Source: Mucilaginibacter sp. L294
Lineage (GTDB): Bacteria; Bacteroidota; Bacteroidia; Sphingobacteriales; Sphingobacteriaceae
Length of the DNA stretch: 64,000 nt
Direction: 5' to 3'
NCBI RefSeq assembly: GCF_001636615.1
Contig: NZ_LGEK01000002.1
Span: 1 to 64,000, forward strand
The notes under the pieces are model-generated. The model did no database searches. It was not told the origin of the DNA and saw only the letters and a list, made by a program, of their open reading frames with translations. This document shows, one piece after another, positions 19,705 through 49,829 of the stretch. The position numbers and the translations under genes are program-made. How positions within the stretch are numbered: the first letter of the stretch is position 1; each line of letters opens with the position of its first letter.

Positions 19705-19755
19705 CTTGCGCTCGTCTGTGACGAGTGCTTAACATGGGTTAGCGATTATATCGCT
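19705..19755 (+). repeat. left end of the RAYT element: 28-bp repeat plus hairpin
   Basis: A 28-bp sequence (19705-19732, starting CTTGCGCTCGTC) with an internal imperfect palindrome is followed by the hairpin AGCGAT-TAT-ATCGCT (19741-19755). Read on the other strand, the hairpin is led by GTAG, as in classical REP sequences. The 28-bp part is the exact reverse complement of 20355-20382. Confidence 0.85.
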
Positions 19756-19776
19756 ACAATTATTATTTTTATAACC

Positions 19777-20358
19777 ATGTCACATCAGTATAGGGTCAGG
19801 GATCTCGAAGAAGTTTACTTTGTAACTTTTACAATAGTTGATTGGATAGACGTTTTTACAAGGCCTGCTTATAAGGAATTAATAATTGATTCGCTCAAGT
19901 ATTGCCAGCAAAATAAAGGACTTGAGTTATACGCCTATTGCTTAATGACGAATCATTTGCATTTATTAGTGTCGGCAAAGCTTCCGGCGAAACTTTCTGA
20001 TATTATTCGTGATTTTAAAAAACATACTAATAAGCAGATCATGAAACTAATGGAAACAGAGAATGAAAGCCGAAAGGACTGGATGATTTACAGGTTTCAG
20101 TATCATGCAAAGTATAATAATAGGATACAGGATTATAAAGTATGGCAAGATGGTTATCACGGAATAGCTTGTGATAAGCCGAATATCTTGCTTCAAAAGT
20201 TGGATTATATTCATGATAACCCCGTTAAAGCGGGGGTTGTTGCTTTGCCTGAATATTATTTATACAGTTCCGCGGCTAATTATGCAGGTGAAAAGGGCCT
20301 GCTTGATGTGTTGTTGTTGGATACAGGGTTTTACGTTGCAAACGTAAAACCCTATTAA
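19777..20358 (+). CDS. REP-associated tyrosine transposase (IS200/Y1 family, RAYT)
   Basis: 193 residues of the Y1 HUH transposase family. The HUH motif is H60-L-H62 in MTNHLHLLV. The C-terminal half carries the RAYT-like patterns VWQDGYHGI, LDYIHDNPVKAGVV and EYYLYSSAANY; the catalytic Tyr is probably in or near GYHGI, but this is not certain. Such enzymes nick and join single-stranded DNA at REP hairpins. The gene lies between perfect 28-bp inverted repeats, and the right repeat overlaps its stop codon. The last 9 codons form a 12-bp-stem hairpin (20326-20352) that is reused in a non-autonomous copy at 38.3 kb. Confidence 0.92.
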   Translation: MSHQYRVRDLEEVYFVTFTIVDWIDVFTRPAYKELIIDSLKYCQQNKGLELYAYCLMTNHLHLLVSAKLPAKLSDIIRDFKKHTNKQIMKLMETENESRKDWMIYRFQYHAKYNNRIQDYKVWQDGYHGIACDKPNILLQKLDYIHDNPVKAGVVALPEYYLYSSAANYAGEKGLLDVLLLDTGFYVANVKPY

Positions 20359-20382
20359 GCACTCGTCACAGACGAGCGCAAG
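20326..20382 (+). repeat. right end of the RAYT element: coding hairpin plus inverted 28-bp repeat
   Basis: A perfect 12-bp stem with GCA loop (20326-20337 with 20341-20352) lies inside the transposase 3' end. The 28-bp inverted repeat follows at 20355-20382 and contains the TAA stop (20356-20358). Confidence 0.85.
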
Positions 20383-20399
20383 GAATAAGCATGGTTACA

Positions 20400-20449
20400 T
20401 TGCGCTCGTTTACAACGAGCGCTTAATCTGGTTCAGCGATTGTATCGCT
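20400..20449 (+). repeat. additional REP copy beyond the RAYT right end
   Basis: The 9-bp palindrome GCGCTCGTT-TAC-AACGAGCGC (20402-20422) and the hairpin AGCGAT-TGT-ATCGCT (20435-20449) repeat the layout of the left end in the same orientation. It ends 4 bp before the stop codon of the convergent AsmA-like gene. Confidence 0.8.
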
Positions 20450-31100: not shown

Positions 31101-31136
31101 TCCGCCCTGCATTCTGCTATACTTCATCATTTCCCC

Positions 31137-31220
31137 GCCGTTGTTGGTGTTGTCACCAACAACCTTTAGGCAGGTAGTAAACAAGCATGGCGGCTTGTTG
31201 GTGACAACACCAACAGCGGC
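31137..31220 (+). repeat. REPIN-like pair of inverted hairpins (GTTGGTG family)
   Basis: Two 26-bp arms (31137-31162 and 31195-31220) are reverse complements with one mismatch, 32 bases apart. Each arm is itself a hairpin: TTGTTGGTG-TTGT-CACCAACAA on the left and TGTTGGTG-ACAA-CACCAACA on the right. It is unrelated in sequence to the RAYT repeats at 19.7 kb. Confidence 0.7.
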
Positions 31221-37552: not shown

Positions 37553-38284
37553 ATGCAAACTATACGGATAACCACCTCCCAAAACATTGATATTGATTAT
37601 GAACTGGCGGGTTTAGGCGAGCGTATTGTTGCCAGCCTTATTGATTTTGGCATTTTTATACTGGTAGCCATACTCTGTGCAATTGCAGGGATATCCTTAC
37701 GTGCCGAAGATGTATTTGGTGTGGTATTTATATTTATTTACGCCGCGCTGTATGTGTTTTATGACCTTGCCTGCGAGGTTTTCATGAACGGGCAATCGGT
37801 AGGGAAAAAGGTAATGAAGATAAAGGTGATGAGTTTAGATGGCTCGCAGCCGCGCCTTGGCCAGTATTTATTGCGGTGGCTTTTCCGGATCATTGATTTT
37901 GGGGTTAGTGGCGGTGCTGTGGCCCTGGTTGTTGCCGCCATAAGCGATAAGGTACAACGCATAGGCGATTTGGTTGCAGGCACTATATTGATCAAAACAG
38001 AGATGCGCACAAAAATTGAGCATGTTGCTTTTCGCCCGGCGTTTAGCGATTACGAACCGGTATTTGCCAACGTTGCCGAATTAAATGAGCAGGATATAGA
38101 ACTGATAAACGAGGTGATAAACAGCTATATTAAAACCGGTAATAACGTGCTTGTATATAATATGGCACTGCGTACCAAAGAACGCCTGGGCATAATGCTG
38201 CCCGATAATATGAACGATATGCGTTTTCTGCAAACGGTGCTTAAGGATTATGCCTTTAAAACCACGCAAACCGAGGAACTGTAA
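37553..38284 (+). CDS. RDD family membrane protein
   Basis: 243 residues. The RDD domain (about 15-150) has the signature Arg/Asp residues in ELAGLGERIVASLIDFGIFIL, three to four membrane helices, and GQSVGKKVMKIKV plus LLRWLFRIID. The C-terminal 90 residues are soluble. RDD proteins are small membrane proteins, some proposed to be transporters. It is divergent from the SpoIIM-MoxR-DUF58 operon with a 96-bp gap and is a usual member of that neighbourhood. Confidence 0.88.
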   Translation: MQTIRITTSQNIDIDYELAGLGERIVASLIDFGIFILVAILCAIAGISLRAEDVFGVVFIFIYAALYVFYDLACEVFMNGQSVGKKVMKIKVMSLDGSQPRLGQYLLRWLFRIIDFGVSGGAVALVVAAISDKVQRIGDLVAGTILIKTEMRTKIEHVAFRPAFSDYEPVFANVAELNEQDIELINEVINSYIKTGNNVLVYNMALRTKERLGIMLPDNMNDMRFLQTVLKDYAFKTTQTEEL

Positions 38285-38293
38285 TATTACAGA

Positions 38294-38399
38294 CTTGCGC
38301 TGATTTGTAATCAGTGCTTAATAAGTTGGGCGATTGTATCGCCACTATAGCGTTGCAAACGCCGGACCATATTAAGCACTCGTCATAGACGAGCGCAAG
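38294..38399 (+). mobile_element. 106-bp non-autonomous derivative of the RAYT element (REPIN/MITE)
   Basis: The left 28 bp (38294-38321) match the RAYT left end except in the inner stem, followed by the hairpin GGCGAT-TGT-ATCGCC (38329-38343). A short hairpin GCGTT-GCA-AACGC (38350-38362) matches the core of the coding hairpin at the transposase 3' end. The right 28 bp (38372-38399) are nearly identical to 20355-20382. Both ends of the 19.7-kb element are therefore present with the coding part removed. It lies between convergent RDD and DUF2752 genes. Confidence 0.85.
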
Positions 38400-38408
38400 A
38401 TGAAGAAA

Positions 38409-38702
38409 TTACAGGTGCGCCATTTTTAAAGTATAACTAACCGCTATAATTAGCGCTACAACAATAAACATTGTTTTTTTAACCAGGCTTTTGCGGGTAT
38501 CCAGCTTAAATATACTATCGGCAAGCCACCATGCCGCCATTATAAGCAGGGGTATGGCGGGCGGGTAGAGTAAAAAACTTTGGTGTACATCGCCTTTTAA
38601 CAAAGCCAGTAATGAGCGCTGAAAGCCACAGCCGGGGCAATCTATGCCGGTTATGTATTTAAATGGGCAGGGGAGTAGATGAGCTTTTAACCAGCTATTC
38701 AT
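38409..38702 (-). CDS. DUF2752 domain protein
   Basis: 97 residues with two or three membrane helices. The signature CPFKYITGIDCPGCGFQRS (about 12-30) matches DUF2752, which has a CP-x(n)-CPGCG-xxR pattern. The Cys cluster may bind metal or form a disulphide; function unknown. It is a single gene on the minus strand, divergent from sdaA. Confidence 0.88.
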   Translation of the reverse strand: MNSWLKAHLLPCPFKYITGIDCPGCGFQRSLLALLKGDVHQSFLLYPPAIPLLIMAAWWLADSIFKLDTRKSLVKKTMFIVVALIIAVSYTLKMAHL

Positions 38703-38784
38703 TCGGTTAAGGTAATTAAACCATGGTTAATTATTAAAATAATTACCTCAAAAAATCTCCAATACTATCTGTAATTTTATCCCG

Positions 38785-40215
38785 ATGCAACAACGCGAAC
38801 AGATTTCTGTATTTGATATGTTTAAGATAGGCATAGGCCCGTCAAGCTCGCATACGCTTGGCCCATGGCGTGCCGCGCAACAATTTGTTGAATTGCTTAA
38901 ACAGAAAGATGCATTGCCGCTTGTTGTACAAGTAAAAATATTGCTTTATGGCTCGCTGGCTAAAACAGGCAAGGGCCACGGTACCGATATTGCCATACTG
39001 CTTGGCCTGAGCGGAGACGACCCGGTAACCTTTGAAGTTGATAGGATAGACAGCAAAATTGCCGAGATAACCAAAAGCCACAAACTGATATTAGGCGGCG
39101 AAAAAGAGATCAGCTTTTTTACTGATGACGACCTGCTTTTCCTGTTTGCCGAAAGCTTGCCCTATCACCCTAACGCGGTTACGTTCCAGGCATTTTTAAG
39201 TAATGAAACGGCCGTATCGGCCACGTTCTATTCAATAGGTGGTGGTTTTGTGGTGAAAGAAGGCGCGCAAACCCAGCAAAAAAACGAGGTTGACCTGCCA
39301 TTTCCTATTGATACCGCAGGCGACCTGCTGCACTGGTGCATCAAAACCGGCCTCAAGGTATCTGAAGTGGTAATGGAGAATGAGCTTGCCTGGCGCAGCG
39401 AACAGGAAACCCGGAACGACGTACTCAATATTTTTAAAGTGATGCGCGAGTGTATGTACCGCGGCTGCCATACCGCAGGCAACCTCCCCGGCGGCCTGAA
39501 TGTTGCCCGCCGCGCATCAGCATTAAATAAGCGGCTTTTAAAAGGCCAAACCTATACCAACTATACCGAATGGGTGCAGGCCATGCGCCAAACCGGCAAT
39601 GGTTTCCAGAATATTTTAGACTGGGTGAGCTGTTTCGCGCTGGCCGTGAACGAGGAGAACGCCTCTTTTGGTCGTGTGGTTACCGCACCAACCAATGGCG
39701 CTGCCGGTGTTATACCCGCGGTGCTGCAATATTATATATCCTTTTGCGATGGGCTCGACGACCAGAAGATAACCCAGTTTTTGTTCACCGCATCCGAGGT
39801 GGGCAGTATCTTTAAAAAGGGCGCTACTATATCTGCCGCGATGGGCGGTTGCCAGGCCGAGATCGGCGTATCATCTGCCATGGCAGCAGCAGCCCTTACC
39901 GAGTGTTTGGGCGGCAGCCAGCGCCAGGTATTAATGGCCGCCGAGATTGCCATGGAACACCACCTTGGCCTCACCTGCGACCCTATTGGCGGCCTGGTGC
40001 AGGTTCCCTGCATTGAGCGTAACACCATGGGTGCTATCAAAGCCATCACCGCAAGCCAGCTGGCCCTGCAAAGCAACCCCGATAAAGCCAAAGTAAGCCT
40101 TGATGCCGTAGTACGCACCATGTGGCAAACCGCCCAGGATATGAACTCCAAATACAAGGAAACATCTGATGGTGGGCTGGCAATAAATATCCCGATCAGT
40201 TTGCCGGAGTGTTAG
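38785..40215 (+). CDS. sdaA: L-serine ammonia-lyase (iron-sulfur type)
   Basis: 476 residues. Converts L-serine to pyruvate and ammonia. An N-terminal beta domain (about 1-155; [24 protein letters not shown]) and a C-terminal catalytic alpha domain (about 180-470) are fused, as in single-chain bacterial enzymes. The 4Fe-4S ligand cysteines are in [17 protein letters not shown] and VPCIERN. It is preceded by TAATTTTA, one base off the promoter consensus. An SMI1/KNR4-type gene starts 9 bp downstream. Confidence 0.95.
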
Positions 40216-40884: not shown

Positions 40885-40923
40885 AAGAAGCAACCCTAAG
40901 CTATAAGCGCGGCGAAAAATGCT

Positions 40924-41300
40924 TGTTCCATTTGCGAAAAAAACGAGACAAAATGGAACAGGCATTAAAATCATAAAAATCTATAAATCAGATATTTAAT
41001 GCTTAAGCGTTCACTTTCGTTTACGGTTATTTTATACACTGAAAAGGACGTTTTAAAGTCGAAAAAAAGCGAATGAAAGTCGAAAAAAGTCGTTTTTTGA
41101 CGCCGATTGCTATACCTCGTTTTTGTTCCATTTTACAAAAAGTGGAACAAAAATCAAAAAATGATAACGCTCTGCAAATAAGCTGTTTAAATTAAAAATG
41201 GTGAAGTAAAACTTTAGATAGACGCAGAAAATTAAAACATTAATGAATTGACTATCAATATGTTCCATTTGTTCCACTTGTTCCATTTTAAAGTGGAACA
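40924..41300 (+). repeat. AT-rich gene-free stretch with repeated TGTTCCA/TGGAACA motifs
   Basis: There is no credible gene between 40708 and 41323. GTTCCA or its complement TGGAAC occurs eight times: an inverted pair (40924-40933 with 40951-40960), a second pair (about 41119-41150), and a tandem 9-bp array TGTTCCATT/TGTTCCACT/TGTTCCATT (41261-41287) closed by an inverted copy (41293-41300). AAAGTCGAAAAAA-type runs lie between them. It looks like a binding-site cluster or remnant; function unknown. Confidence 0.55.
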
Positions 41301-41323
41301 AAACAAGATTTATCAGGTAGCTA

Positions 41324-44416: not shown

Positions 44417-47113
44417 ATGGCATACAAACGTTTTATAGCGGGGCTGTTATTAGCCATTGGGGTTATTGGGATATACAGTTTCAATGCCGATGATATTATT
44501 ACCCGCTTACAGCGCCAGCTGGATAAATGGAGTGATAGCCACCCGATAGAAAAGGTACACCTTCATCTTGATAAACCATACTATACCGCCGGTGACGATA
44601 TCTGGTTTAAAGCCTATGTAATTACCGGCCCGATGCACCGCCTGCAGCCTGATAGCGGTATTTTAAACGTAGAGCTGATAGACGCGCAGGATTCTATCAA
44701 ACAAAGCTTAAAACTCCAGCTACATAATGGCCTTGCCTACGGCGATTTTGCCTTGCCCGATACCTTGCACGAAGGTAACTATCGTATTAGAGCATACACC
44801 CAGTACATGCTTAATGCAGGCAGCGATTATATTTTTGACAGGGTCATCAGCATTGGCAACGTTATCACCAACAAGGTTTTTACAAAAACAACATTTAATA
44901 CCACCACTCAAAATGGGCGCAACGCTGTAACAGCCGATATTAATTATACCGATGCCAACGGCATAGTATACGCCGGCAATGCGGTAAGCTATTCGGTTAT
45001 GCTGAATAATAAGGTGCTGGCAAAAGGTAAAGGCGTTACCGATGCAAACGGCAACATGCATATTAGCCTGCCCGCCGATAACGCCGATTTACTAAAACAA
45101 GGCCGGATAGTTACCGGGATAAGTGGGGCAGGTGATGGCACTGTGCATAAAAATATCCCTATACGTACCATGGCAGGCTATGCCGATGTACAGTTTTTTG
45201 CAGAGGGTGGTAACATGGTAAATGGCGTTCCTGCCAAAATAGCTTATAAGGCTATAGGTACCGATGGCCTGGGCATAACTATTAAAGGCACGGTAACTAA
45301 TAACAAAGGCGAAGAAACGGCGCAGATCAACCCTTCGCATTTAGGGATGGGGGTGTTCATCTTTACGCCACAAAGCGGCGACAGTTATAAGGCAAATATT
45401 GTTTACCCCGATGGTACAAAAGCATCGGTAGCGCTACCAAAAGCTACGGATAACGGTTACGTGCTAAAAGTTATTGAACAGGGGGCAAACGACCTGCGGA
45501 TAGCTATAGCCGCGGCAAAGGGTACAACAAGTCCGTTTGTGTTGGTTGGGCAAAGCGCGGGTAAAGTTTACTATTCTGCCAGGAGCACAGCGGGGGGCGA
45601 TGCTTTTTCTACCATCGTGCCCAAAAGTAAGTTCCCTTCGGGGATTGTGCAGTTTACCATGTTCTCTGAATCTGGCGAACCACTGAACGAGCGCCTGGTG
45701 TTTATTCAAAATCCCGCAGATAAATTAAATCTGTCGGTAACTGCAGGCAATCAAAACTATCAGCCACGGCAAAAGGTAAACCTAAATATTGATGCGAAAG
45801 ATAACGATGGTAAACCTGTAGTGGGCAGCTTTTCCATATCGGTAACCGATGAAACCAAAGTACCCGTTGATGAGGATACAGAGAATAATATTTTTGCCAG
45901 CCTGTTGCTTACGTCAGATCTGAAAGGGTATATAGAGCAGCCATCCTATTATTTTAATAGTAATAATGAGAAAACACGTGCCGATCTGGACGTACTGATG
46001 CTTACGCAAGGTTACCATAGGTTTGAATGGAAGCGTGTTTTGAATGATACCCCTTCACCCAACCAATACGCAGTACAAAAAACTTTTACTATATCCGGTA
46101 GGGTAACCACCCCGTCGGGCGCGCCGGTAGCAAACGGCAAAGTTGAACTGATAAACTTTGGCGATGGCGTGCTTCAGGTTGATACCCTTACTGACCAAAA
46201 CGGCCGTTTCGCATTTACTGATATTATATATGCCGATAGTTTGAAGTTTTTGATCCAGGCGCGTAACGCAAAAAACAAAAGAGATGTAGTGATAAAGATG
46301 GATACAGTGCCGTTACCCTCTGCTGCTAATTATAAAAACTACGCGGACTATAATGTAAGCACGGGCAATAGTATTTCTGTTTACGCGCAAAACAGCAAGT
46401 TGTTATATTTTGAACAAATTAAGGCAGGCCTGGGTAACCACATAATAAGCCTTAAAGAGGTGTTGATAAGGGAGAAGCGCATCGCACTAAAACATTCAGC
46501 AAATTTGAATGGCCCGGGTAATGCCGACCAGGTTTTGCTGAGTAAAGACCTGGTGAATTATGGCTGTGTGCGCCTTGCCGACTGCCTGCAAGGGCGCTTG
46601 CTTGGTGTATTGTTCAATAACGGTGTGCCGGTTACAACCCGTGGCGGTGGCCGCATGCTTATTGTTATTGACGGCATGAACTCTGATGCCATGTATATGA
46701 ATACGTTAACTGTAAATGATATACAATCGATAGAAGTATTACGCAACATTAGTACAGCAGGCATATACGGCGGCCGCGGAGGCAATGGAGTATTGGTAAT
46801 TACCACCAAACGCGGCGATGAGCCAACCTATTATCCGCAACAGTTTAGCAAGGGTATAATTCCATATCAGCCAAAAGGCGTTTATAAATCGCGCGCATTT
46901 TATTCGCCAAAATATGATGCTAAAACCAACCGGAAAATTGCCGATCTGCGTACCACCGTATACTGGAAGCCCGATGTTGTAACCCCGGGCGGTAAAGCTA
47001 TGGTTGAATATTTTAATGCGGGCAGCGCAGGCACTTACCGCGTGATAGTTGAAGGGGTTGACAGTGAAGGGAATATTGGCCGGCAGGTATTTAGGTATAA
47101 AGTACTAAATTAA
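44417..47113 (+). CDS. MG2-like / barrel-less TonB-plug protein, copy 1
   Basis: 898 residues. A signal peptide or anchor (about 1-24) is followed by a macroglobulin-like MG2 domain (about 35-140, LDKPYYTAGDDIWFKAYVITG) and further beta domains (to about 560). A carboxypeptidase-regulatory-like domain lies at about 555-625 (TFTISGRVTTPSGAPVANGKVELI). A TonB plug-like domain covers about 705-800 (RLLGVLFNNGVPV ... MLIVIDGM ... IQSIEVLRN ... IYGGRGGNGVLVITTKRG), then an Ig-like C-terminus (VDSEGNIGRQVFRYKV). There is no room for a 22-strand barrel after the plug. A related gene follows 22 bp downstream. Function unknown. Confidence 0.8.
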   Translation: MAYKRFIAGLLLAIGVIGIYSFNADDIITRLQRQLDKWSDSHPIEKVHLHLDKPYYTAGDDIWFKAYVITGPMHRLQPDSGILNVELIDAQDSIKQSLKLQLHNGLAYGDFALPDTLHEGNYRIRAYTQYMLNAGSDYIFDRVISIGNVITNKVFTKTTFNTTTQNGRNAVTADINYTDANGIVYAGNAVSYSVMLNNKVLAKGKGVTDANGNMHISLPADNADLLKQGRIVTGISGAGDGTVHKNIPIRTMAGYADVQFFAEGGNMVNGVPAKIAYKAIGTDGLGITIKGTVTNNKGEETAQINPSHLGMGVFIFTPQSGDSYKANIVYPDGTKASVALPKATDNGYVLKVIEQGANDLRIAIAAAKGTTSPFVLVGQSAGKVYYSARSTAGGDAFSTIVPKSKFPSGIVQFTMFSESGEPLNERLVFIQNPADKLNLSVTAGNQNYQPRQKVNLNIDAKDNDGKPVVGSFSISVTDETKVPVDEDTENNIFASLLLTSDLKGYIEQPSYYFNSNNEKTRADLDVLMLTQGYHRFEWKRVLNDTPSPNQYAVQKTFTISGRVTTPSGAPVANGKVELINFGDGVLQVDTLTDQNGRFAFTDIIYADSLKFLIQARNAKNKRDVVIKMDTVPLPSAANYKNYADYNVSTGNSISVYAQNSKLLYFEQIKAGLGNHIISLKEVLIREKRIALKHSANLNGPGNADQVLLSKDLVNYGCVRLADCLQGRLLGVLFNNGVPVTTRGGGRMLIVIDGMNSDAMYMNTLTVNDIQSIEVLRNISTAGIYGGRGGNGVLVITTKRGDEPTYYPQQFSKGIIPYQPKGVYKSRAFYSPKYDAKTNRKIADLRTTVYWKPDVVTPGGKAMVEYFNAGSAGTYRVIVEGVDSEGNIGRQVFRYKVLN

Positions 47114-47135
47114 TAGTCTATCTAAACTGCATTAT

Positions 47136-49829
47136 ATGGCCTTTAAACGTATCGTATTTGCATTACTCTTAACTGCTGGCGCTATTGTTTTTTACAGTTT
47201 TAATACCAATGATGATATTTTAGCCAAATTAAGTGCACAACTTGATAAATGGAGCGATAGCCATCCGATAGAAAAAGTACACGTTCATCTTGATAAACCA
47301 TACTATACCGCCGGCGATGATATCTGGTTTAAAGCCTATGTGATTACCGGCCCGCTGCACCGTCTGCAGCCCGATAGCGGTATTTTAAATGTAGAGCTTA
47401 TAGATGCGCAGGATTCCATCAAACAAAGCTTAAAACTACAGCTTCATTATGGCCTTGCTTACGGTGATTTTGCGCTGCCCGATACTTTGCACGAGGGAAA
47501 CTATCGTATCAGAGCATATACCCAATATATGCTTAATGCGGGCAGCGATTATATTTTTGAAAAGGCCATTAGTATAGGTAACGTTATCACCAACAAAGTT
47601 TTTACAAAAACAACATTTAATGCTTCCACTCAAAACGGGCACAGCACTGTAACAGCAGATATTAACTACACCAATGCCAGCGGTACGCCTTATAGTGATA
47701 AGACGATGAGCTATACGGTTATGCTGAATAATAAGGCATTGGCCAAAGGCAAAGGCGTTACCGATGCAAATGGTAATATACGCATTATCTTGCCGCCAGA
47801 TAATGAAGCCTTGCTGAGACAAGGGCGCATAATTACCGGCCTGGCAGGCCTGCCGGATGGCATTGTGTATAAAAGTATCCCTATACGCACTATGGCTGGC
47901 TATTCCGATGTTCAGTTTTTTCCTGAAGGGGGTAATATGGTGAACGGGCTGCCCGCCAAGGTTGCTTTTAAGGCTATAGGTGCTGATGGGCTGGGGGTAG
48001 ATATTAAAGGCGTCGTAACCGGTGGGAATGGTGAGGCCGTTGCACAGCTCAATACATCGCATTTAGGTATGGGCACGTTTATCTTTACTCCACGCAGTGG
48101 CGATGCTTATGTAGCAAATATTAGCTATCCGGATGGGACAAAGAAAACAATATCAATACCAAAGGCAACTGATAATGGCTATGTACTGAGTGTTATTGAA
48201 TCGGGCGCAGATTATCTGCGTATTGGTATATCTGCAAAAGGTACAACAAGCCAGTTTATTTTAACCGGCCAAAGTGGCGGTAAGGTGTATTATTCGGCTA
48301 AAAGCCCGGCGGGGAATGATGCATTTTCGGTTATTATACCCAAAAGCAAATTCCCTTCAGGGATAGCGCAATTTACGCTGTTCTCAGAATCGGGCGAACC
48401 ATTGAACGAACGCCTGGTATTCATCCAAAATCCTGTAGATAAATTAAACCTGGCAGTAACTACCGAGAAGCAAAGCTATTCGGCACGGCAAAAGGTAAAG
48501 CTTAATATCGCTGCTAATACTAACGAAGGTAAACCCGCCATTGGTAGTTTATCAGTATCGGTTACTGACGAAAGCAGGGTGCCCGTTGATGAAAATGCGG
48601 AGAATAATATTTTTGCCAGCCTGCTGCTTACGTCAGATCTGAAAGGATATATAGAACAGGCATCTTATTATTTTAACGATAACAATGAGAAAACCCGTGC
48701 TGATCTTGATGCGCTGATGCTGACACAGGGTTATCTTAGATTTGAGTGGAAAAAAGTATTGAATGATGTTGCCTTACCTAACCGTTACCCTTCAGAAAAA
48801 ACATTCACTATTTCTGGCAAAGTAACTACGCCATCGGGCGTGCCGGTAACTAAAGGAAAGGTTGAACTGGTATATTTTGGTAAAGGCATATTTAATATAG
48901 ACACCCTTACCGACCAAAATGGCCGCTTTGCTTTTACTGATATGATTTATGCGGATAGCCTTAAGTTTTTAATTAGGGTGCGAGATGCAAAAAACAAAAG
49001 TAATGTGATCATAAAAATGGATACGGTGCCATCTTCCCCGGTATTAAATTACAACGCCGCTGCAGCTGTCTTAATGAATAATACTAATGCTGTTTCCGTA
49101 TATGCACAAAAAAGCAAACAACTATATTTTGAGCAAATAAAAGCCGGGCAGGGGAACCGTGCTATACAACTGAAAGAGGTTTTAATAAAAGATAAACGTA
49201 TAGAAGCCTTAAAGCATTCTGATAATTTGCATGGCCCGGGCGTTGCCGACCAGGTTTTATTTGCTAAAGATATCGTTGATCAAAGTTGCCCCACTCTTGC
49301 TCAATGTTTGGGCGGGCGTTTATGGGGTGTGCAGTTTAATAAAAAAGGCGAACCGTGTTCAACCCGTGGCGGTGTTATGATGATTGTGATTGACGGGTTT
49401 CCCGCCGAAGCTGGAGGCATAGACGTAAACATAGGTAATATACAATCGATAGAAGTATTGCGTAGTGGAAGCAAAGCGGCTATTTATGGCGGCCGCGCCA
49501 GCAACGGGGTGTTGCTTATTACAACCAAGCGTGGCGATGAAAGGGTTGACCAACCTCAACAGGTTAGCAAGGGTATAGTAACATACAGGCCAAAAGGGAT
49601 ATATAAATCACGAACATTTTACTCGCCTAAGTACGATGCAACCACAATTCAAAAGATTGCCGATCTGCGTACCACCGTATATTGGAACCCCGACGTTGTA
49701 ACTCCCGGCGGTAAAGGCACAGTTGAATATTTTAATGCAGGTAGCACCGGCACTTATCGCGTAGTAGTTGAAGGGGTTGACAGTGAAGGGAATATTGGCC
49801 GGCAGGTGTTTAGGTATAAAGTGGAGTAA
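47136..49829 (+). CDS. MG2-like / barrel-less TonB-plug protein, copy 2
   Basis: 897 residues, the tandem paralogue of the preceding gene with the same domain order. The first ~150 codons are nearly the same at protein level, while the middle and plug segments have diverged more (LWGVQFNKKGEPCSTRGG, MIVIDGFPAEAGGIDVN, IQSIEVLRSGSKAAIYGGRASNGVLLITTKRG). Copy 2 lacks the Gly-Gly run of copy 1 in the plug. The pair is an old duplication kept in one operon. A 14-bp stem hairpin overlaps the stop codon at 49823-49860. Confidence 0.8.
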   Translation: MAFKRIVFALLLTAGAIVFYSFNTNDDILAKLSAQLDKWSDSHPIEKVHVHLDKPYYTAGDDIWFKAYVITGPLHRLQPDSGILNVELIDAQDSIKQSLKLQLHYGLAYGDFALPDTLHEGNYRIRAYTQYMLNAGSDYIFEKAISIGNVITNKVFTKTTFNASTQNGHSTVTADINYTNASGTPYSDKTMSYTVMLNNKALAKGKGVTDANGNIRIILPPDNEALLRQGRIITGLAGLPDGIVYKSIPIRTMAGYSDVQFFPEGGNMVNGLPAKVAFKAIGADGLGVDIKGVVTGGNGEAVAQLNTSHLGMGTFIFTPRSGDAYVANISYPDGTKKTISIPKATDNGYVLSVIESGADYLRIGISAKGTTSQFILTGQSGGKVYYSAKSPAGNDAFSVIIPKSKFPSGIAQFTLFSESGEPLNERLVFIQNPVDKLNLAVTTEKQSYSARQKVKLNIAANTNEGKPAIGSLSVSVTDESRVPVDENAENNIFASLLLTSDLKGYIEQASYYFNDNNEKTRADLDALMLTQGYLRFEWKKVLNDVALPNRYPSEKTFTISGKVTTPSGVPVTKGKVELVYFGKGIFNIDTLTDQNGRFAFTDMIYADSLKFLIRVRDAKNKSNVIIKMDTVPSSPVLNYNAAAAVLMNNTNAVSVYAQKSKQLYFEQIKAGQGNRAIQLKEVLIKDKRIEALKHSDNLHGPGVADQVLFAKDIVDQSCPTLAQCLGGRLWGVQFNKKGEPCSTRGGVMMIVIDGFPAEAGGIDVNIGNIQSIEVLRSGSKAAIYGGRASNGVLLITTKRGDERVDQPQQVSKGIVTYRPKGIYKSRTFYSPKYDATTIQKIADLRTTVYWNPDVVTPGGKGTVEYFNAGSTGTYRVVVEGVDSEGNIGRQVFRYKVE

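Follow-up and report, generated by a model that had tools for sequence, protein, structure and literature searches.

How did a 106-bp unit without a gene, lying at 38294–38399, come to carry both ends of a RAYT element found at 19.7 kb in the same DNA, and does it move? The window in which both lie is the whole stretch of 64,000 nt analysed here; it comes from contig C67, one of the 285 into which the 5.25-Mb genome is assembled. Our reading, to which we give a probability of roughly 0.88, is that the unit belongs to the RAYT at 19.7 kb as its non-autonomous miniature: one left-end (LE) and one right-end (RE) arm in inverted orientation, with the gene deleted. It is placed on the plus strand by the polarity of the RAYT gene, and its description as a transposase-less, REPIN/MITE-like element draws on end matches, an arm search and an empty site in a related genome (G049).

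The unit is an inverted pair of arms of about 50 nt with 7 bases between them, and these arms match both ends of the RAYT element. An arm opens with CTTGCGC, which is followed by an outer hairpin and GTGCTTAA; a linker of some 9 nt then leads to an inner hairpin, for which two types are distinguished, A (GCGAT..ATCGC) and T (RCGTT..AACGY). The left arm (38294–38342, plus strand; 58.4 bits with the arm covariance model R1, and supported by the fold) is of the LE type. It has a 28-nt outer repeat containing the hairpin CTGATT-TGT-AATCAG (38300–38314, +), and its inner hairpin (GCGATTGTATCGC; GCGAT-TGT-ATCGC at 38330–38342, +) is of the A type and resembles the RAYT 5′ end. The right arm (38350–38399, minus strand; 72.4 bits) is of the RE type. 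Its outer hairpin, CTCGTC-TAT-GACGAG (38379–38393, −), is supported by covariation and fold, and its inner hairpin (read inward, GCGTTTGCAACGC; GCGTT-TGC-AACGC at 38350–38362, −) is of the T type and resembles the RAYT 3′ end. The unit begins 9 bases past the stop of the frame at 37553–38284 (+) and is followed by a short convergent frame, as far as crude reading-frame calls show.

The full RAYT element, the presumed autonomous partner, occupies 19705–20382 (+). Its left end arm (19705–19754, +; 74.8 bits) has an A-type inner hairpin, its right end arm (20333–20382, −; 73.2 bits) a T-type one, and a solo arm oriented like the left end adjoins it at 20399–20448 (+; 65.6 bits). The right end overlaps the gene, whose final codons and TAA lie inside it, the stop being part of a conserved TTAA motif. 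The outer repeat, CTTGCGCTCGTCTGTGACGAGTGCTTAA, is exact at 19705 (+) and 20382 (−). The two edges of the 106-bp unit carry versions of this 28-mer, differing from it at 6 bases on the left (38294, +) and at 1 on the right (38399, −). When the window was shuffled 60 times by dinucleotides, the closest match had at least 7 mismatches and averaged 10.1. All 6 differences in the left arm make up three stem pairs (positions 9–19, 10–18 and 12–16), each changed so that pairing is kept. The sequence-only reading had taken the unit to be assembled from both ends of the RAYT element with the gene missing, and the changes in its left stem to be compensating. The 28-mer at both edges and the matching inner hairpins bear out the former, and six differences falling in exactly three pairs bear out the latter. 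Since the match is also closer than in any shuffle, that observation was correct except in speaking of a "19.7-kb element": the RAYT element sits at 19.7 kb, but its length is 678 bp.

The RAYT gene (19777–20358, +) encodes 193 aa. The protein scores 102.4 bits against the RAYT family model NF047646, for which the cut-off is 80, and Y1_Tnp is also matched. For its structure model (mean pLDDT 86.8), Foldseek ranks 4er8 first (E 4.3e-07), the structure of a RAYT in complex with a REP hairpin, followed by the ISDra2, IS200 and IS608 transposases; a sequence search of solved structures gave weak ISDra2 matches (E ~0.4). The motifs are NHLH, the HuH motif (59–62), WQ (123–124), YIHDNP (144–149) and SS (164–165), with Tyr144 placed 82 residues beyond His62. 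Group 5 of the RAYTs (group numbers of Bertels et al. 2017, by way of PMC6006769) corresponds to TnpAREP subclass 2.6 of Bacteroidetes, which is defined in that paper by NH[LIV]H, WQ, YIH[QN]NP, a larger HuH–Tyr distance (median 82) and the SS motif. The secondary structures that flank its genes are called "atypical" there: they lack GT[AG]G and recur elsewhere in the genome. All these features are shared by the RAYT at 19.7 kb, from its gene motifs, long HuH-to-Tyr spacing and SS to its GT[AG]G-less flanks and their further copies, and by its motifs it fits group 5/subclass 2.6. The D in YIHDNP stands where the motif has Q or N, and aligned relatives (near-duplicates L031–L033 excluded) show D, H, N or Q there. 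The closest named relatives of this RAYT are in Mucilaginibacter. The genome holds four RAYTs, and the other three (L008–L010; L008 on C21, L009 on C33) are bordered by distinct palindromes.

The two forms of the inner hairpin make left and right distinguishable. Among 23 close RAYT elements, the 5′ arm is A and the 3′ arm T in 14, both are T in 6, three are incomplete or untyped, and the reverse T/A arrangement never occurs. The 36 gene-less elements, counting the unit in the window and a copy on contig C232, are A/T in 27 cases and T/T in 4; an arm is untyped in 5, including the C232 copy, and none is A/A. With A/T in 27 of 36, the gene-less unit usually retains both an LE and an RE. A deletion intermediate is seen in genome G030, where a 133-bp copy adjoins the RAYT. 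Its first 66 nt match the RAYT 3′ end (86.4%), its last 59 nt match the 5′ end (94.9%), and it retains RAYT bases internal to both hairpins. This copy is visibly an internal deletion of the RAYT beside it, longer than the usual 105 bp. Together with the A/T polarity, it provides what is sought in a MITE, namely internal deletion with terminal inverted repeats kept.

The sequence-only reading had proposed that other copies be sought, and they are few in the same genome and many in some relatives, often as the inverted pair. A search of the unit's own genome with R1 gave 8 arms: the RAYT pair, the solo arm at 20399–20448, the 106-bp pair, a pair at C232:21011–21117 and one on C46. The C232 pair is a second full-length copy, 78% identical to the 106-bp unit, which brings the full copies found in this genome to two; the C46 copy is a deletion derivative of about 60 bp with one arm found. 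A simpler pattern, AGCGATTGTATCGCTAC with 3 mismatches allowed, gave 9 matches in this genome and 7 for the reversed control, and so tells nothing more than the three places already known. The unit had no match at E 1e-5 in phage and plasmid collections. Across the genus, arms at E ≤0.001 are present in 67 of 149 Mucilaginibacter genomes; since scoring took in 40 candidates from each genome, counts approaching 40 are lower bounds. A deeper search of five genomes gave 229 arms, with 87 in the richest. Among the 150 listed of these 229 arms, neighbours within 30 bp are facing (+−) in 35 pairs, −+ in 6, ++ in 3 and −− in 2, and 29 of the 37 facing pairs up to 100 bp apart span 103–109 bp. The layout is identical at the 33 loci fetched, which hold 34 of these 37 pairs. 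Such a recurrent, dispersed pair of inverted palindromes is one of the marks of a REPIN. At one locus (L158, on G065:C5), a unit of this family appears to have received a nested element: its outer hairpin is split by a different inverted-repeat sequence (AAGTGTTGGGAAG...CTTCCCAACACTT).

It was also expected that copies would be tied to the presence of the RAYT, and they are. A RAYT of 67–100% identity is found in 23 of the 149 genomes among the matches listed; the next best reach at most 54%, except for a 75% fragment in G037 that is a piece of a frameshifted RAYT gene (L139). Arms are present in all 23 genomes with a close RAYT and in 44 of the 126 others (Fisher 8.5e-10, shared ancestry ignored), and five or more arms in all 23 and in 20 of 126 (1.5e-15, shared ancestry likewise ignored). 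Each genome with a close RAYT has 5–41 arms, the high counts being lower bounds. This is the link to a cognate RAYT looked for in a REPIN, and arm populations without a close RAYT exist as well. Among the matches listed, genomes without a close RAYT include G004 with 18 arms, G009 with 40 (also on deeper scoring), G026 with at least 40 and G090 with at least 39. G065 (15 arms) and G124 (14 arms) lack the RAYT at an intergenic site that it occupies in G030 and G034: 183 and 111 bp (L262, L263) replace about 700, in flanking DNA that is 85–88% identical, by loss in the former pair or gain in the latter. In all these genomes, either the RAYT was lost after the arms spread, or the arms have other sources. 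In G037, arms persist although the RAYT is frameshifted. Arms without a close RAYT, or with a frameshifted one, mean that copies by themselves do not prove current activity.

The insertion site can be followed through the upstream gene. In G049, whose homologue of the 37553–38284 protein is 92% identical and the closest among the matches listed, the element is absent downstream of the gene, so that the comparison of insertion sites suggested earlier gives an empty site in the closest relative found. A scan for the arm pattern over the 600 bp downstream of the homologue found none in 29 (G049 included) of the 106 other genomes that have the gene. The exact junction at 38294 is uncertain because the intergenic DNA of the compared genomes has diverged. 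The RAYT element itself stands in 12 gene neighbourhoods among the 23 genomes (1.4-kb flanks, blastp 1e-12) and so seems mobile over the time of the genus. None of 27 typed elements has 3 or more matching bases abutting its ends as a target duplication, a feature looked for in DDE-type MITEs. The longest word shared between the flanks of these 27 averages 4.33, compared with 4.03 on re-pairing and a maximum of 4.70 in 200 re-pairings. The 106-bp unit is exceptional among them in having the 7-nt ATTACAG on each side, not abutting. The flanks are AT-rich, with G scarce just outside LE, C scarce just outside RE and no consensus.

The alternative that survives best, which we consider unlikely, shares its origin with our reading and takes the unit as an old, immobile deletion derivative whose copies were spread in the distant past, or through recombination among repeats, and not by the RAYT of today. 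The small number of full copies found in the unit's own genome, two at 78% identity, would fit such a history, as would arms that outlast the RAYT in G065, G124 (RAYT missing) and G037 (frameshifted). So would the divergence of the copies in G009 and G039, whose within-genome identities (80.3% and 81.8%) are hardly above the 80.5% between genomes. Against it, the unit's own genome is the only one of 30 with an arm at the site after the 37553–38284 gene, which is unoccupied in G049. Moreover, copies in some genomes are close: seven in G030 have a mean identity of 92.1% and 200-bp left flanks that align at 45%, so that the ends are common and the flanks unrelated, and three in G037 have a mean of 97.1%. 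Three copies in G116 fall between, at 85.9%. When seven G030 units were compared with G034, G065 and G124, the sites were messy rather than cleanly empty, the intergenic DNA being diverged or rearranged. In that flank search, the second flank had no listed match and the sixth and seventh matched repeats, and the results are hints of presence or absence only.

Pairing in the stems was examined by covariation. Alignment A1 combines arms of RAYT loci with both pairs of the unit's own genome, 58 arms in all (4 of 62 RAYT-locus arms were dropped for indels or a shifted cut). In it, 99.3% of cells pair, 9 of 14 pairs have changed on both sides, and the covariation score is 0.285. Shuffling lowers the score to 0.123, with none of 500 shuffles reaching the observed value, and sliding the pairing gives no more than 0.122. 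Alignment A3 has 78 dispersed arms, none of them RAYT ends; 8 of 86 were dropped, one as an exact duplicate and the others for failing a position test, and one window arm entered one base short. It is 99.2% paired, again with 9 of 14 pairs double-sided, and scores 0.284, compared with 0.114 shuffled and at most 0.099 on sliding. The check on covariation recommended by the sequence-only reading is therefore strongly positive in RAYT-locus and dispersed arms alike. As a DNA strand, the 106 nt fold at −28.8 kcal/mol (z −6.7, 0 of 200 shuffles as low) and the complement at −27 (z −5.9). Both strands fold into a four-way junction made of a terminal CTTGCG/CGCAAG stem, the two outer hairpins and a central stem from two TGCTTAATA tracts. 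Covariation in a palindrome is compatible with a folded strand or with a palindrome read by a dimer; we infer that the base flips in the stems favour folding.

Hairpins kept in this way might also serve the host as RNA, as a terminator, mRNA stabiliser or regulatory RNA, with mobility incidental. The placement of the elements lends this some colour: by crude frame calls, with 8 of 35 elements overlapping a small frame, 11 lie between convergent, 22 between co-directional and 2 between divergent genes. Insertions into promoters, if harmful, would likewise leave few elements before divergent genes, however, and a terminator-like site was not found within the unit. The three Rfam matches obtained for 37800–38900 were all below gathering scores, and the one that overlaps the unit was far below. 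The folding of both strands also counts against an RNA role, which in addition leaves the RAYT-specific stem variants and the LE/RE polarity unexplained, and we regard it as quite improbable.

Stem variants bear on which RAYT is concerned. In G031 and G047, pair 8–20 is G-C in the RAYT ends, and every one of the 20 arms sampled in these two genomes, including 16 dispersed ones, has it. Of the 16, 15 are in A3, where they make up all the rows with G-C at this pair, and none of the 63 rows from other genomes has it; ten arms sampled in G142 are of mixed types. That the units are moved by an agent other than the RAYT at 19.7 kb, such as one of the three other RAYTs, might be suggested by the presence of four RAYTs in the genome and by the plentiful arms in some genomes without a close RAYT, but it is the least probable of the alternatives, given that the other three are bordered by different palindromes, that no arm of the CTTGCGC type was found at seven RAYT loci of 46–52% identity (L043–L049) and that stem variants within genomes track the close RAYT.

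Returning to the reading of the unit as a miniature of the RAYT at 19.7 kb, the nearest known systems each share part of its features. The two hairpins of IS608 share one strand, and so do the LE and RE hairpins in non-autonomous copies of IS200/IS605 elements, whose ends are not inverted repeats. The present elements resemble the IS200/IS605 family (IS608, ISDra2) in the HuH/Y1 nuclease fold and the subterminal hairpins. They differ in that the outer repeats are inverted repeats of each other, exact over 28 nt in the RAYT element, which sets the unit apart from a non-autonomous IS200/IS605 copy.

The head of a REPIN arm is GTAG or, in another form, GTGG. No such head is present in any of the 78 aligned dispersed arms, which start with CTTG or close variants, so that the unit is better called REPIN-like than a REPIN. 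As described by Bertels and Rainey (2011, PMC3116915), REPINs are alike in their inverted palindromic ends, short spacer, lack of a gene, compensating changes and proposed movement by a RAYT in trans, and they also have alternative long-hairpin and "clover" folds. Compared with these REPINs (PMC3116915), the arms here are longer (about 50 nt) with two hairpins, left and right can be told apart, the numbers are modest and the GTAG/GTGG head is absent. With the canonical head absent, as reported for subclass 2.6, and with two hairpins per end, distinguishable ends and a G.T mismatch in the outer stem, we consider this a variant of the REPIN kind. The REPs of Nunvar et al. (2010, PMC2817692) are similar in having a RAYT gene between inverted palindromes that change with pairing kept, and copies elsewhere; they differ in their GT(A/G)G head, and the RAYTs meeting the criteria of that study were gammaproteobacterial. 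MITEs and the TIRtrons/TIRYTs of PMC3733652 share inverted terminal repeats around a Y1 transposase gene and gene-less copies, whereas the ends here are covarying hairpins and lack target duplication throughout the group. By inspection, the TIRYT consensus given there, GGGGWSAS, is not in the outer repeats. In the text of PMC6006769 that was covered, we found no description of a paired miniature unit and its architecture, of LE/RE asymmetry or of the G.T position taken up below, and we found none of a unit of the 106-bp type in those parts of the open-licence RAYT and REPIN literature that were covered.

The unit behaves like a REPIN and originates like a MITE. Its covariation, recurrence, linkage to the RAYT and stem variant in common with it, the empty site and the 133-bp deletion together make it a REPIN/MITE-like element of a group 5 RAYT. 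The earlier suggestion of a non-autonomous, RAYT-derived unit is thereby supported through copies, linkage, covariation and the empty site; movement in trans is an extrapolation from the family, as are the binding and cutting by RAYT set out here. When single-stranded, the unit may take up the four-way junction or fold each arm into hairpins of its own. As an HuH/Y1 nuclease acting on single strands, the RAYT would bind the outer hairpins of the single-stranded DNA and cut beside them, at or near the CTTG ends. It would then copy or move the folded unit into AT-rich intergenic DNA elsewhere, with no target duplication.

One position in the outer stem may have a part in this. In the 78 dispersed Mucilaginibacter arms, it is G.T in 57, G-C in 18 and A-T in 3. 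Hairpins with one interior mismatch were then counted at 57 named RAYT loci (L192–L249 without L215) of 35–58% identity, read from outside towards the gene. These loci are mostly from Bacteroidota with a few from other phyla, and they are related rather than independent and only putatively of subclass 2.6. Within 400 bp of the RAYT, there are 51 G.T hairpins in 30 loci and 11 of the mirror A.C type in 9 loci; control DNA 1.2–2.4 kb away, with 2.5 times the bases, has 4 G.T and 8 A.C. Typical G.T hairpins are GGCGC..GTGCC and CGCGC..GTGCG, with the mismatch low in the stem, G outside and T inside. In a separate hairpin, this position is a wobble G.T on one strand and A.C on the other, and in the four-way fold both bases are in Watson–Crick pairs with the opposite arm. 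IS200/IS605-type transposition is strand-specific, and the E. coli RAYT depends on mismatches in the stem and recognises just one strand (PMC8266576), which by analogy makes a role of the G.T in strand choice a fair guess. Tentatively, and with the odds somewhat against it, the G.T might be a feature of subclass 2.6 as a whole, directing the RAYT to one of the strands at either end and favouring the folded unit in an inverted pair. The two ends of an inverted element marked in this way would then be recognised on different strands, whereas in IS608 both are on one.

The unit, its two-hairpin arms, LE and RE, a deletion intermediate and co-variation with the RAYT are now described across one genus, which offers genomes with the RAYT, with a frameshifted RAYT or with no close RAYT. 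The choice of strand and site by RAYTs without a GTAG guide, and the lifespan of REPIN-like populations deprived of their transposase, become testable there.

The window has other repeats. A second transposase-less inverted-repeat element, of a different family, lies at 31136–31220; its arms match the ends of a RAYT of the same genome, C230:1963–2394, at 90% over 51 nt and 96% over 26–27 nt. At 40923–41309, a TTGTTCCATTT repeat is present in three copies inside 390 bp. Finally, 44417–49829 holds adjacent frames of 898 and 897 aa with long blocks of 73–87% DNA identity, apparently a tandem duplication.
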